A DNA stretch of 55,723 bases from an uncultured Porphyromonadaceae bacterium (GTDB lineage: Bacteria > Bacteroidota > Bacteroidia > Bacteroidales > Muribaculaceae), in assembly GCA_947175545.1 (NCBI GenBank), contig CAMWNI010000014.1, forward strand, positions 1 to 55,723, written 5' to 3'. Below are positions 928 to 6,059 of the stretch, one piece after another. The notes beneath the pieces are model-generated. The model was not told the origin of the DNA. It was given only the letters and a program-made list of their open reading frames with translations, and did not search any database. The position numbers and the translations under genes are program-made. The first letter of the stretch is position 1. Every line of letters starts with the position of its first letter.

Positions 928-2046
928 TTACACTTTTTTAAGAAAGTGTTGGACTTTATCAAGATGAGATTCGCACAAAACGTGATTTTTGAGCCTGAGT
1001 AGATATTTATGACTCAGAAATTTGGGCAGTAACCCTTTGTTCCGTAATGCAATCAAATATCTGTTTGTCAGAATATCTAAATTGGAATAGGTCGTTTTAT
1101 CCCAAGAATCATAATAGGCACGTTCTCTATTCTGTAACAGTTCGGTTGATGAAATAATTTTATTAAGATCCTCTAAGTCACTCGAAAATGCATCTTCAGA
1201 TAAAAAATGAACAGCAGGATTATTGTCATAACACTGTTCATAAGGGTGAATTTTGAACTTAATCTTACTTCCTGGCATGAACTCAAGTCCAACCATATAT
1301 CCTTTATACCATGAATCATTCACCTTCCTTCCGGCAGGAAAACAGAGATTGCCTAACCCATAAAAAATAAGGCCTTCATTATACTGTTCATATCCAGAGA
1401 AGCAATGTTGGTGGTGGTTGATTACTACATCTGCTCCTGAATCTATGAAAAAGCGATATAGTTTTTGCATGCGGGTTGAAGGCAGATTATAGTGTTCATG
1501 TCCTCCATGGACGATGACAATAAGGTAGTCAACGTTGGGTTTAAGTTTCCGGATTGCGTAAAATTGACTTATTGGGTCAAGTGGATTTGCTCCTGCGTCA
1601 GTTTCTGTTGCAATTGAAAATTCGTGTTCGCAGCAATTGATAAGTCCGATACGGCAGTTATTTGCCTCTAAAATAAGCGGATTCTGCGCTTGCGAGAGTC
1701 TCTGCCCGACACCGATGGTAAGAATCCCATTTTGTTCGCAAATTGCTTTTGTTCGCAAAAGAGCTTCATGTCCATAATCAAGGATATGATTATTTGCTAA
1801 TGTAACAACGTTTACTCCGGCATATTCTAATGCTTTTACCGTTGACGGCGAGCATTTAAGATTCGGGCCATATTTTTCAATCGGAGCATCGCATGTGTCA
1901 GCAAAAGGACTTTCCAGGTTTATGATTGTTGTATCGTATTCTTTGGACAAATTTTGAAGTTCAGAAAAAAAGGAGAAGTCATTTTTTTCAATCAGTTCAG
2001 TAATGTTTAATTTGGGAGCAACATCTCCTCCGACTAATATTTTCAT
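928..2046 (-). CDS. CapA-family (poly-gamma-glutamate/polysaccharide) metallophosphatase-like protein
   Basis: A 372-residue protein of the CapA/PGA_cap family, which has a calcineurin-like metallophosphoesterase fold. Visible motifs in order: GGDVAP near the N-terminus, NLESPFAD (about 45), LANNHILDYG (about 83), VHGGHEHY (about 178), VINHHQHCFSGYE (about 207) and the glycine-rich GLGNLCFPAGRK that ends the core. In Bacillus CapA supports poly-gamma-glutamate anchoring; in Bacteroidetes polysaccharide loci the homologues are uncharacterised and may act on glycan or lipid-linked phosphate. No signal peptide is evident. It lies 10 bp downstream of the flippase stop. The DNA looks more AT-rich than the genes right of 7 kb, as is usual for capsule loci. 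Confidence 0.85.
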   Translation of the reverse strand: MKILVGGDVAPKLNITELIEKNDFSFFSELQNLSKEYDTTIINLESPFADTCDAPIEKYGPNLKCSPSTVKALEYAGVNVVTLANNHILDYGHEALLRTKAICEQNGILTIGVGQRLSQAQNPLILEANNCRIGLINCCEHEFSIATETDAGANPLDPISQFYAIRKLKPNVDYLIVIVHGGHEHYNLPSTRMQKLYRFFIDSGADVVINHHQHCFSGYEQYNEGLIFYGLGNLCFPAGRKVNDSWYKGYMVGLEFMPGSKIKFKIHPYEQCYDNNPAVHFLSEDAFSSDLEDLNKIISSTELLQNRERAYYDSWDKTTYSNLDILTNRYLIALRNKGLLPKFLSHKYLLRLKNHVLCESHLDKVQHFLKKV

Positions 2047-2056
2047 AATTCGGGGC

Positions 2057-3508
2057 TTATCGTCTGATGAACTTTTTGAGGTTGGACATGATATATCGTT
2101 CCTGAGGGAAACACATTATAATACCGATATACACAGCAATCGCTATAACGATGTATATCAGTGTAATGATTAATGATGTTGATTGCGGAAGCAAAGTAAC
2201 CGATAACGCCATAATCATTGATGCAAATAACTCAGGGCATATGTTGCTACACATTTTCAATGGATTGACCCGTACAAATAATAAGAGTGTGATTAAGTTG
2301 GCAATGACTAATTCTAACCGTACCAATGCTCTTATTGTGCATAAAAAATCAAATCCATATCCAACTGCGAACCAAACTGCGGGGATTAGAACGGCAATAT
2401 GTGATAATTGAACCCAAACAGAAAGTTTTGGTTTCCCGATTGAACGGTATATTTCCGAACTATAGTGGGAGAGTACGATTGTAATAGCACTTGTCAAAGC
2501 CCAAATGCCCATAAAATAGGATGCTTCGTGCCATTGTGACCCTAACATAATGTCTACTACTGCATCTCTGAAGATGAACAGTCCGACGCCAAGAGGGATT
2601 ACGAGCAGGCCAACAGCTTTCTGGAACCGCAGAAATACTTTCATGAACTCTTCGCGGTTATTCTGTAGACGGGATAATGATGAGAACAGCACGGGGGTTG
2701 TTGCGGCGGTTATCAGTCCTGTGAATTGGGCAACAGTTGTCATGGATGTACGATAGATGCCCAGATAGTATTCGTTTAACAATCTTCCAACAATGAAGAT
2801 GTCAATATAACTTGTCAGCCATATTGTAACGGCTTCAAGCATTGACCAGCTTGTGAATGAGAACATTTCCTTGAACAGCCTGAAGCTGTAATCAAGTTTA
2901 GGCTTCCAGCTGGACTTTACGGTCAGGATAATCGCATTTGACAGGTTCAGACCGATCATGCCTATTATCAGCGCCCAGTAGCTTCGCATTATAAATGCAA
3001 GCGGGATTGTTATAACGATAGGAATCGCTACGCCTATTATGCGTACAATAAAGAGCGTTTTGAAGTCGAAATGGCGCCTGTAAAGTGCCATTTGGATGCT
3101 GCTGAAGGCTGCTAAGGGTATGCAGCAGCAGGAAATCGCGATGACATGACCGTAGCCCTTATTGCCGACTAATTCTGCAATCTGGTCTGAGAATATCAGA
3201 ATGAATCCCCATATAATGAGTGACATGATGAGGTTTGACCAGAAGGCTACATTCGTTGACCGGTGAAGATCCTCTTTCGACGAAAATTCGTGTTGAACAA
3301 TGTATTTCTGGAAGCCGGCGTCTGTGAAGATTTCGGCAAAGCTGATGACCATGGTGACTGTGACCAGCACGCCGAAGGCTTCCGGCGTAAGCACGCGGGC
3401 AAGCACCATTGTTGATATCGGCGCAACAAGCTTGGCGGCAATCTCGGTGACCGACGACCACTTGGTCGCCTTGATGATTTTGGAATTCAGTTCTGATTTC
3501 TCACTCAT
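2057..3508 (-). CDS. Wzx-type polysaccharide flippase (lipopolysaccharide biosynthesis protein)
   Basis: A 483-residue polytopic membrane protein with about 12-14 hydrophobic segments, of the MATE/MVF-like Polysacc_synt family (WzxC/oligosaccharide flippase group). It should flip undecaprenyl-linked repeat units across the inner membrane. The N-terminus 'IIKATKWSSVTEIAAKLV...ISTMVLARVLTPEAFGV' and the next segment 'FSSLSRLQNNREEF' are characteristic. The reading frame stays open to 3553, but that start would overlap the upstream gene by 32 bp; the ATG at 3508 (MSEKSELNSK) gives the usual family N-terminus and a 13-bp gap, so I chose it. Second gene of the leftward polysaccharide operon. Confidence 0.88.
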   Translation of the reverse strand: MSEKSELNSKIIKATKWSSVTEIAAKLVAPISTMVLARVLTPEAFGVLVTVTMVISFAEIFTDAGFQKYIVQHEFSSKEDLHRSTNVAFWSNLIMSLIIWGFILIFSDQIAELVGNKGYGHVIAISCCCIPLAAFSSIQMALYRRHFDFKTLFIVRIIGVAIPIVITIPLAFIMRSYWALIIGMIGLNLSNAIILTVKSSWKPKLDYSFRLFKEMFSFTSWSMLEAVTIWLTSYIDIFIVGRLLNEYYLGIYRTSMTTVAQFTGLITAATTPVLFSSLSRLQNNREEFMKVFLRFQKAVGLLVIPLGVGLFIFRDAVVDIMLGSQWHEASYFMGIWALTSAITIVLSHYSSEIYRSIGKPKLSVWVQLSHIAVLIPAVWFAVGYGFDFLCTIRALVRLELVIANLITLLLFVRVNPLKMCSNICPELFASMIMALSVTLLPQSTSLIITLIYIVIAIAVYIGIIMCFPQERYIMSNLKKFIRR

Positions 3509-3521
3509 GTTTCGGTGATTG

Positions 3522-5033
3522 TCAATCAATCGTTTCAAGGAAGCACTCTTCAATGCTGACCTCCCATTTGATTTCGTAATCCTCGTTGAGCCGGATTGTG
3601 AAGATGCGGAGGTCTCCGTTGGTTGATTTTCGCTTGTGTTTGTAAATCGTTCCCTTGTAGCCTTTGAAGACGCCGCCGGTTACGATGACTTTTCGTTCCG
3701 GCACCAGTTCAGGATTCGTCAGGCATTCAACGTTGAGAGTCTTGTCGTTGATTCCGATGACTCTTTGAAAGAGTTCCATTTCCGAGTTCGGGATGCTTGC
3801 ATAGGGCGCATCTGCTTTGTTTGCCGTTTTGAAACACCAGGCTAATTCGCCGACTGAATGAACAATGAGGCGGACTTTGTCCGGTCTTGTTCTGAAGAAA
3901 AGAATGTGAGGAATGAATGGTTCATCGTAGGAACGCAGCTTTCCGCCATTTTTCTCGAAAACTTTGCGCGTCGGGAAGAAGAAGTGTGTTGACTTCAGCA
4001 GGGCCGGCATTGTATTCTCAAGTTTTTCCTTGATTATTTCAGGCGTATTGCAGTTGCGCATGAATAATGCAAACCATCTGGGCGTTGTCGGGTCTATGTA
4101 GTCGGCCACTCGTTGCAGGATGTCAATTCGTTCCATGTCGGACACTTCCACCGGGTTGACAATGTCAAGCCATTTCATGGAGTAGGGGAGTGGCTGAATG
4201 ATTCCTCTGATTTTCTCTGCCGGGATGCCAATGTTTATTGCTGCGCTTATCCAGCTTGTCCTGATTAGTTCGTCTTCGCCGATGCCGTTCAGTTTACAGC
4301 CGTAGTTATTCAGCAGTTCTGTCAGCGATTCGGACAGTTGTCTGACTTGCTGCATTGGCCGATTGTGCCGATTCACATTGAATACGTATGATTTGCGGGC
4401 TGTTGGAATCTGGCTGAAAATTTCCTGAATCTGTACAATGTCATCAATTGGGTCGTTGAGTTTCAGGCTTATGATTGACGACAGGTCTGGATTGCAAGAG
4501 TAAAACTGATATAACAGGATTTTATTCAGTTCCGGCTGATCACAGGAATTTTGGCGCGCTATTTTTTTTAATGCTTTGATGCCTTCATGCGTTTTGTCGA
4601 ATCTGGACGAGTCAATATCGCTGATTTTTTTTCTCAGAATATCGAAAAAACAACAGTCTGTCGACGAATCGGCAGTATATTCTTCGTAAAGGCTTTTAAG
4701 CCGACCAAGGTATCTCCTGACTGTAAGGGCGGTATTCCCTTTGTAGACCAACATGAAGGCCCAGTTACGGATGTTTCGCTCGTCTTCTTCAGGCGAACTG
4801 CCTGCGGCAACTCTTGGCGTTTTAAGAAAGGAACTGATTACTCGTCGCCCAATCGTGTCATTTGGAGGTAAATCATGTCGCGCAGATTCGACGCTGCCGT
4901 AGAAGCTGCTTGCGGTATTTTCTTTTGAATCAGGCAAATGATTGCGCATTTGGACGCGAACATTTTGTGTTCGCAATGATAAATTTCGCTTCCCCCCATT
5001 GACCGGAATTATTTTCTGCCGTGGCGGTTGCAA
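3522..5033 (-). CDS. NusG/UpxY-like antiterminator with integrase-like N-terminal half
   Basis: 503 residues, about three times the length of ordinary UpxY proteins (about 170-190). Residues ~317-425 look like an NGN domain (RWFALFMRN, then FFFPTRKVFEKNGG, FIPHILFFRT). Residues ~443-475 look like a KOW motif (PERKVIVTGGVFKGYKGTI). This is the layout of UpxY-type NusG paralogues, which head Bacteroides capsule operons and let polymerase read through. Upstream of it, residues ~85-118 (WAFMLVYKGN, TVRRYLGRLKSLYEEY) resemble the core-binding domain of tyrosine recombinases. Residues ~150-280 resemble a degenerate catalytic domain, but no box-I Arg, HxxR pair or Tyr nucleophile can be seen. It is the first gene of the polysaccharide operon, matching an antiterminator role. 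Start 5033 is the longest; ATG 4949 (MRNHLPD) is a real alternative. Confidence 0.72.
   Translation of the reverse strand: MQPPRQKIIPVNGGKRNLSLRTQNVRVQMRNHLPDSKENTASSFYGSVESARHDLPPNDTIGRRVISSFLKTPRVAAGSSPEEDERNIRNWAFMLVYKGNTALTVRRYLGRLKSLYEEYTADSSTDCCFFDILRKKISDIDSSRFDKTHEGIKALKKIARQNSCDQPELNKILLYQFYSCNPDLSSIISLKLNDPIDDIVQIQEIFSQIPTARKSYVFNVNRHNRPMQQVRQLSESLTELLNNYGCKLNGIGEDELIRTSWISAAINIGIPAEKIRGIIQPLPYSMKWLDIVNPVEVSDMERIDILQRVADYIDPTTPRWFALFMRNCNTPEIIKEKLENTMPALLKSTHFFFPTRKVFEKNGGKLRSYDEPFIPHILFFRTRPDKVRLIVHSVGELAWCFKTANKADAPYASIPNSEMELFQRVIGINDKTLNVECLTNPELVPERKVIVTGGVFKGYKGTIYKHKRKSTNGDLRIFTIRLNEDYEIKWEVSIEECFLETID
4956..4974. repeat. Small perfect inverted repeat near the antiterminator start
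   Basis: Seven-base arms GCGAACA and TGTTCGC flank the loop TTTTG. If translation begins at the alternative ATG (4949), this hairpin sits just upstream of the start, where it could act as an operator or leader hairpin. If translation begins at 5033 it lies inside the coding sequence. The palindrome is seen directly; the function is a guess. Confidence 0.4.
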
Positions 5034-5235
5034 TTAATGCATTTGTGATGTATGTGGCCGAGATTGGTAACAAAAATTTAATTACAATTGATTCCTGCAT
5101 CAAAATCGTGTCAACTGTTTCAATTGCAAAATTAACTAATAGTTCTGAATAATCAAAATAATTATCAACCTTTCTTCGCTTCCCAGCGGCCAAGTCCCCA
5201 CCGTTACATTTATGATTTTCGCCCATAATCATATA
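5034..5235 (-). promoter_or_regulatory. AT-rich leader/promoter region of the polysaccharide operon
   Basis: About 200 bp between the antiterminator gene and the inverted repeat at 5236-5273. A minus-strand frame is open here (about 100 codons), but its translation has no recognisable pattern, so I read the stretch as promoter plus long leader. Capsule operons headed by NusG paralogues usually need such a leader for antitermination. No clean TAnnTTTG box was found. Confidence 0.35.
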
Positions 5236-5273
5236 ATCCTATGCCCTCGCGAGGTGTCGCGAGGGCATAGGAT
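5236..5273. repeat. Perfect 17-bp inverted repeat with a 4-nt loop
   Basis: Arms ATCCTATGCCCTCGCGA and its exact reverse complement are separated by GGTG. The stem is G+C-rich in an otherwise A+T-rich stretch. No T-run follows on the plus strand; on the minus strand the next bases are ATTATATGATTATGG, a poor terminator tail. It may be a terminator-like hairpin, a protein binding site, or a leader structure acted on by the downstream antiterminator. Confidence 0.6.
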
Positions 5274-5326
5274 CAACGTCATCTACATGAATGACAAGGC
5301 CGGTCGTGGCCTGATCAAGTAGTTTC

Positions 5327-5737
5327 TTAGTCCTTGGTGAGATTCCATCTTGCAAGATTAAACTTGAATTGAAGTACCCCATTTTTAATCGAATATGTCA
5401 CTGTTTTGTCGTATTCAATATGTGGGCGACTTCCTTGGTCACACCATAATCCCTTGATGTGTAGTTTCTTTTTGAAAACAGTGTACTCTCCACTGAAGTA
5501 GTAGGAACACAACAACGGATTGTGATACCACCAGATTTCGCAAGTGCCGTCTTCATAGAATTTCGCGCACATTGGATCGTTTGACGGCTTTTGTGCATCA
5601 GAGTAGCCATGCCATGTGCCGACAATGGAGGATGTTGAATTGGGATCGTCGGGTTCGTTCTCGTCTCCACAGGAGACGAAGCCGGCGCTCAAAACTCCAA
5701 TGAGCATAGCGCAGATGAATTTCAAGAATTTTTTCAT
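5327..5737 (-). CDS. Small lipocalin-like lipoprotein
   Basis: 136 residues with a classical lipoprotein signal: MKKFLKF, a hydrophobic core, then the lipobox AGFVSC with Cys23, followed by the acidic stretch GDENEPDDP. The mature part begins SIVGTWHGYSDA and continues with short beta-strand-like segments (FYEDGTCEIWWY, YYFSGEYTVFKKKLHIKG, TVTYSIKNGVLQF). That pattern fits the lipocalin-like lipoproteins common in Bacteroidales, whose ligands are unknown. It should be lipidated and sit in the outer membrane or be surface exposed. It appears monocistronic. The lipoprotein call is firm; lipocalin-like is a pattern-based guess. Confidence 0.75.
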   Translation of the reverse strand: MKKFLKFICAMLIGVLSAGFVSCGDENEPDDPNSTSSIVGTWHGYSDAQKPSNDPMCAKFYEDGTCEIWWYHNPLLCSYYFSGEYTVFKKKLHIKGLWCDQGSRPHIEYDKTVTYSIKNGVLQFKFNLARWNLTKD

Positions 5738-6059
5738 GTTTAATTAATTTAAATATTATGATTGTATTGTCTCTTTCATGTAGTTAAAATTTTGCGAGTC
5801 TGCATGCTATTCCGAGTTCAAGATTCCATGCGGTCTTGGTGTGATGGTGGTCTTTGCCAAGGTCTTTTATGTCGCCCCAACCTATGCCGGCACCAGTGAA
5901 AACGCCAATACGTTTCCACCGACCAATCCAATAGTTGAACCCCAAAAATGTGGATGCTCGTTATGCTAAGAGCTTTCCAATAAATAATACGGTGTCTAAG
6001 AAAAAACGCTATTTGGAAATACGTGAATTTTCAGGAGTGTAAATTCCATCTAAATCAGG
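5738..6059. other. 322-bp stretch without an intact gene
   Basis: Apart from the decayed C-terminal tail at 5784-5960 (separate entry), I see only A+T-rich spacer, including the presumed promoter of the 5327-5737 lipoprotein near 5740-5780. There is no tRNA-like or transposon-end signal. Confidence 0.5.
5784..5960 (-). pseudogene. C-terminal remnant of an outer-membrane beta-barrel protein
   Basis: On the minus strand, 58 sense codons end in TAA and read like the last strands of a barrel: LGFNYWIGRWKRIGVFTG, AGIGWGDIKDLGK, TAWNLELGIACRLAKF. The C-terminal Phe and alternating pattern fit an outer-membrane protein end. The frame is closed upstream by a stop codon (5961-5963) and there is no start codon or N-terminal part, so it is a leftover fragment. 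The parent gene was probably lost in a rearrangement at this junction. Confidence 0.55.

Follow-up and report, generated by a model that had tools for sequence, protein, structure and literature searches.

The window (the whole stretch of DNA that was analysed, 55,723 nucleotides) contains on its minus strand a gene in which a degenerate tyrosine recombinase is fused, in one frame, to a UpxY/NusG-type antiterminator. The first-pass annotation had proposed such a fusion of an integrase-like half and a NusG/UpxY half without giving a strand. The features of the locus are as follows.

3522..5033, minus strand: fusion gene, 503 codons from the TTG at 5033 (CDS 3525-5033; stop codon 3522-3524)
4674..4793, minus strand: residues ~81-120, core-binding (SAM-like) helices of a tyrosine recombinase (hhalign; Phage_int_SAM_5 in relatives)
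4089..4607, minus strand: residues ~143-315, degenerate recombinase catalytic domain (structure and alignment)
3738..4088, minus strand: residues ~316-432, NGN domain, the NusG N-terminal domain (UpxY profile, predicted structure)
3525..3737, minus strand: residues ~433-503, KOW-like C-terminal part (UpxY profile, predicted structure; low model confidence)
2057..3553, minus strand: Wzx-like flippase, the next gene after the fusion (PF13440, 260.7 bits)
928..2046, minus strand: PGA_cap capsule-synthesis-type protein (185.1 bits)
5127..5157, minus strand: fixed Bacteroidales-type promoter, TTTG-N19-TAATTTTG, facing the fusion gene

The fusion is the first gene of a polysaccharide operon, as had been claimed at the outset: the flippase and PGA_cap genes follow directly on the same strand, after which the contig ends. 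An ATG at 4949 (Met29) is another possible start and would give a protein of 475 aa. Residues 1-38 are predicted to be disordered and F44 is the first nearly invariant position in the family alignment, and the match of the protein to G200 starts already at residue 12. The promoter was called from the Bacteroidales consensus. Between the upstream gene and this promoter, positions 5236-5273 form a perfect inverted repeat with 17-bp arms and a 4-bp loop; considered as an operator or a terminator, it is positioned upstream of the promoter. It has no second copy in its own genome (≤2 mismatches) and is absent from the 40 other fusion upstream regions scanned. Rfam gave no match at gathering scores in 4800-5900, and the two hits of a consensus scan of 4900-5400, one resembling a promoter and the other a terminator, were on the opposite strand. 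Folding of the RNA from 4946-5121, run without a control, gave a minimum free energy of -33.9 kcal/mol and a short hairpin immediately before the ATG. The fusion is present as a single copy in its genome (2.23 Mb, 34 contigs), which has two further UpxY-profile matches: one of 200 residues, preceding a gene that by eye looks like a polysaccharide exporter, and one among genes resembling translation genes, which is probably NusG itself.

The UpxY/NusG-type antiterminator occupies residues ~316-503. NF033644 (UpxY) was the top NCBIfam match of the window's fusion, covering residues 320-470 with 63.8 bits, which is below its curated cut-off of 100, and the same profile matched 29 of 29 aligned members of the family (E≤0.1). 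The NGN fold of a UpxY protein was found in the predicted structure of the window's fusion, and RfaH chains occur among the structural matches of the predicted fold; the LoaP profile gave 38.4 bits. Pfam returned no match for the window's own fusion protein. The Pfam KOW domain was found in 2 of 29 aligned members, and the window's UpxY match extends to residue 470, where model confidence is low. Because plain UpxY frames are 165-265 aa long among the matches listed, the ~300 additional residues that the first reading had placed ahead of the UpxY part are real.

Most of these additional residues, ~40-315 (about 275 residues), are a degenerate tyrosine recombinase. A profile of the N-terminal half (N-half) matched the recombinases of its own genome in profile-profile comparison (hhalign) with an E value of 1e-8, compared to at least 0.013 for the controls, and these controls ruled out chance helical similarity as the source of the match. 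In the predicted structure, the fold of the core-binding and catalytic domains is kept almost whole. The core-binding domain initially placed at residues ~85-118 was thus recovered at around 81-120 (hhalign, predicted fold), and the proposed catalytic domain without catalytic residues (~150-280) was found as a degenerate domain at ~143-290 that has lost its active site. Phage_int_SAM_5 passes the Pfam cut-off in the relatives L071, L062, L066 and L073, although not in the window's own protein, and in two relatives both halves reach Pfam cut-offs within one frame. When the PDB sequences were searched with the profile, the best match was 9i5v_14 (E 5e-4), a chain that carries the name RaiA and resembles a recombinase over part of its length, followed by four matches with E values of 0.14 or worse.

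The active site was evaluated by aligning three live recombinases with the N-halves of 41 fusions, among them the window's. In the window's protein the box I arginine, the hairpin lysine, the box II histidine, the second histidine and the tyrosine are gone, and an arginine is still present at the box II position, as in 3 others of the 41 (4/41 in total). Across the alignment the column of the hairpin catalytic lysine is a gap in 40/41 N-halves, the second histidine is aligned in 4/41 and the nucleophilic tyrosine in 1/41. Fossils of the active site are seen as 'GLR' in L059 and L070 and as 'LGH' in L060, L064 and L070. Because no aligned row (0/41) retains the complete catalytic set R, K, H, R, H, Y, the fusions are expected to be inactive as recombinases. 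The identity of both domains is near certain.

Counting the window's, 80 uninterrupted loci span both halves, and they are spread over 66 of the 397 Muribaculaceae genomes. This rules out that the frame consists of two genes joined by a sequencing error, and two of the records, titled as isolates and not as MAGs, also count against that reading. A total of 120/397 same-family genomes matched at E≤0.001, many through the UpxY part alone. A single fusion protein used as a query against genome contigs retrieved no relatives, and one scan of viral contigs with the family alignment A6 gave no match. The alignment A7 was made without five near-duplicates and L072, which contains unread bases. An order-wide search with the N-half covered 393 genomes, including 6 from the same family, and gave matches in 66; outside the family the matching frames were 287-383 aa long, except for one of 471 aa (G550), and all 29 of the outside-family loci fetched contained an Xer-profile frame, with a UpxY match in 0/29. 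The order-wide search with UpxY gave no frame longer than 265 aa among the matches listed.

For 40 fusions, distances in the tree of one half were correlated with those in the tree of the other (r = 0.91), and the highest value among 500 permutations was 0.23; the halves share one history, as expected if they travelled together. In a tree that included a few plain UpxY proteins these 40 fusions clustered, and the 41st, L188, was placed elsewhere, so that a single clade for all 41 fusions failed; L119 in this tree was a wrongly picked frame. L188 (2468-3736, minus strand, genome G117) is a second fusion, separate in appearance; its likeness to the recombinase L079 (described below) is 1.8e-9, and it lies behind a single recombination-type site. 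A broken copy of the fusion was seen in L046 (6093-7783, G219), where the frame is split into pieces of 402 and 161 residues.

Selection was evaluated in six chosen pairs of relatives, three of which had usable dS. The dN/dS of the N-half was 0.08, 0.15 and 0.11 at dS of 0.49, 0.97 and 2.30, respectively, and that of the UpxY halves of the same pairs was 0.01, 0.12 and 0.06. The recombinase half is therefore under purifying selection in these three pairs. Live tyrosine invertases adjoin upxY genes in other Bacteroidales, according to PMC12118408, and dN was higher in the N-half than in the UpxY half in 6/6 pairs; both would fit an adjoining recombinase gene that was fused to upxY by a deletion and is now tolerated as ballast. 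We consider such a leftover very improbable in view of N-half dN/dS values of 0.08-0.15 and the retention of both halves at 80 loci.

The fold of the N-half is better established than the recombinase from which it arose. With the 41-member N-half profile, the top match among five recombinases of the window's genome was L079 (8.5e-17), followed by L075 (2e-10); L079 is a 412-residue enzyme of the Phage_int_SAM_5 type with intact catalytic residues, and it retrieved the fusion L071 at 3.9e-14. A profile of the 29 members nearer the window gave 5e-7 for the Xer-type L075 versus 0.099 for L079. When the 41 members were compared one by one, the best own-genome recombinase was L079 for 10, L075 for 10, L074 for 3, L076 for 1 and none for 17. 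The flat statement that the N-half derives from the L079 type was rejected, because L079 is best in 10/41 and L075 is better in 10/41 and in the window's branch. The window's own N-half matched L075 best (0.006) and resembles Xer-type enzymes slightly more than L079.

To characterise the operons of the relatives, we scanned 83 downstream genes from 29/40 relative loci, leaving out six orphans, L061, L066 and three loci at contig ends. Flippases, aminotransferases, nucleotidyltransferases and UDP-sugar dehydrogenases top the list (first 25 of 73 families). A polysaccharide operon is missing at the six orphans, and L061 is also without an operon on its strand. The orphan fusions (L038, L042, L044, L047, L048 and L050) are closely related and stand alone beside pectin-degradation genes, which are a rhamnogalacturonan lyase and GH88 at L038 and were assigned by likeness at the other five; their upstream regions contain conserved blocks.

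A search for exact inverted repeats upstream of the fusions found eight pairs that share a motif, with arms of 15-27 bp located 146-179 bp apart; 0.34 loci with any such pair were expected from shuffles, which preserve single-base composition only, and the upstream region of L047 is a run of N. Two weaker repeat pairs, at L037 and L044, are without the common motif. The motif is ATCTCTT-NNN-AAGAGAT, i.e., ATCTC-N7-GAGAT, and in all eight pairs the NNN is identical between the copies, read in opposite directions. Allowing ≤1 mismatch within 600 bp, the site was present in 12/41 fusion upstream regions (as an inverted pair in 8 and singly in 4) compared to 1/473 other upstream regions, and the reversed pattern was found in 0/41. 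The 29 upstream regions scored as site-less include L046, which was read from its second piece and has a site pair directly before its first piece; the regions of L059, L039 and L041 were limited to 190-350 bp. The window's fusion has no site within 600 bp upstream and hence no inverted site pair. The early suggestion of an invertase-linked regulator is thus strengthened by invertible-promoter-like sites upstream of part of the family, and not for the window's own gene.

A strict forward promoter was found in 0/12 site-bearing fusions versus 18/29 others (P 0.0003; the loci are related, and the value is a guide only). In the intervals enclosed by the eight pairs, a -7 element was directed away from the gene at 7 loci and towards it at 3, and a strict full promoter was directed away at 2. 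Each locus was seen in one orientation only, and the simplest reading of these sequences is that the paired-site promoters likely flip and were assembled mostly in the OFF state. Plain UpxY genes are also located behind ATCTCTT-N3-AAGAGAT sites, so that the presence of a site does not depend on a fusion. UpxY-like frames of ~340 residues, longer than plain UpxY, lie behind such sites in L181 (4175-5206) and L186 (4281-5303). A site pair of the same type was also seen in L182 (4053-4244; G222, C14), with a DUF4007 gene on one side and a divergent gene on the other.

The 20 fusion-bearing genomes contained 103 sites, compared to 3 for the backward pattern, and an L079-type recombinase (E≤1e-60) was present in 20/20 fusion-bearing genomes checked. 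In a survey of L079-type genes (loci were available for 30/35 matches, and L217 could not be placed), a site with ≤1 mismatch was found within 1.2 kb on the 3′ side in 10/29 readable loci and on the 5′ side in 0/29; the 3′ side of L204 and L220 was only 37 and 191 bp long, respectively. The window's own genome has a site pair downstream of L079, at distances of 221 and 418 bp, and this pair is followed by a gene for a BspA-type leucine-rich-repeat protein. The stretch from L079 to the BspA-type gene, L161 1-3017 (C16, about 26.4-29.4 kb), contains a likely invertible promoter with site starts 197 bp apart. Because sites were found on the 3′ side of some readable L079-type genes and on the 5′ side of none, these enzymes are the best candidates for the invertase that would flip ATCTC-N7-GAGAT sites. 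The sites are built like the published Bacteroidales sites GTTAC...GTAAC of tyrosine DNA invertases located beside CPS promoters, with 5-bp inverted arms and a 7-bp centre (PMC12118408). Unlike the fusion, those invertases and L079 are encoded by separate genes, and L079 has its catalytic residues.

One interpretation of the sites is that the dead half modulates inversion, by competing with or joining a live L079-type recombinase at them and so blocking or biasing the flipping, such that an operon in the ON state would lock itself ON. The pairs that flank the promoter region in 8/41 fusions and the L079-type enzymes and sites present in all 20 fusion-bearing genomes checked are in its favour. 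We nevertheless regard it as quite unlikely, given the 29/41 upstream regions without a site (the window's among them, and the misread L046) and the plain UpxY genes that have sites and no dead recombinase. It is also unlikely that the recombinase fold has given up DNA binding altogether and has become a domain that binds the RNA leader, oligomerises or acts as an autoinhibitory lid on the NGN domain. The low net charge of the N-half, the absence of sites from most loci and the orphan group, which suggests action in trans, would agree with this; the almost complete preservation of the recombinase fold would not.

Our preferred reading is that a retired recombinase has been reused as the DNA-binding, locus-targeting module of a UpxY-type antiterminator, and we consider this probable. 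MrpR (YopR), the master repressor of the SPbeta prophage, demonstrates that an inactive recombinase fold can serve as a DNA-binding regulator (PMC10516654). The fusion family resembles it in that the fold is kept and the activity residues are lost; MrpR differs in being a stand-alone protein that retains Lys and Tyr and is without an elongation-factor fusion. Beyond the identity of the domains, every step of the mechanism is what we infer, including DNA binding and locus targeting by the N-half. By analogy to MrpR at its sites, the dead recombinase half would still bind DNA near its own promoter and would thereby tether the antiterminator to the locus. RNA polymerase initiating there would then take over the NGN domain, and the polymerase loaded in this way would elongate through both the leader and the long operon. 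Since the window's promoter is fixed and no site is present there, whatever may be bound at this locus is not an ATCTC-N7-GAGAT site in intact form.

Elsewhere in the family, the fusion half might recognise the ATCTC-N7-GAGAT sites of its L079-type cousin and so couple inversion to antitermination: the protein would be made only with the promoter facing its gene, would bind the flanking sites and load the NGN domain, and may also protect these sites against a reversal of the inversion. We offer this tentatively, as something possible that falls well short of probable, and a resemblance to L079 that is strong in only some of the members makes it slightly less likely.

The family shares with the UpxY proteins encoded in capsule loci of Bacteroides and Parabacteroides (NF033644) a body with an NGN domain and a putatively KOW-like part, a position as the first gene of polysaccharide operons and, for part of its members, a location behind invertible-promoter-like sites. 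It differs from them by the dead recombinase of ~275 residues at the N terminus and by a score under the UpxY cut-off. RfaH and LoaP are likewise operon-specific NusG paralogues, but their recruitment involves no recombinase domain; RfaH is recruited by ops DNA and LoaP by leader RNA. To our knowledge, the way in which a NusG paralogue is directed to its own operon and no other is unsolved outside these two. Titles and abstract openings in the open literature (on UpxY/NusG, integrases, recombinases and Muribaculaceae inversion) described no such fusion, and a mention deeper in the texts is possible. A natural fusion family in gut bacteria thus provides a testable answer to the targeting of NusG paralogues, in which a retired site-specific recombinase would serve as the address label. 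For Muribaculaceae, the survey also supplies a candidate invertase, together with the recombination sites on which it would act. If the coupling to inversion is true, part of the family would unite promoter inversion and antitermination, each a layer of phase variation, in one polypeptide.
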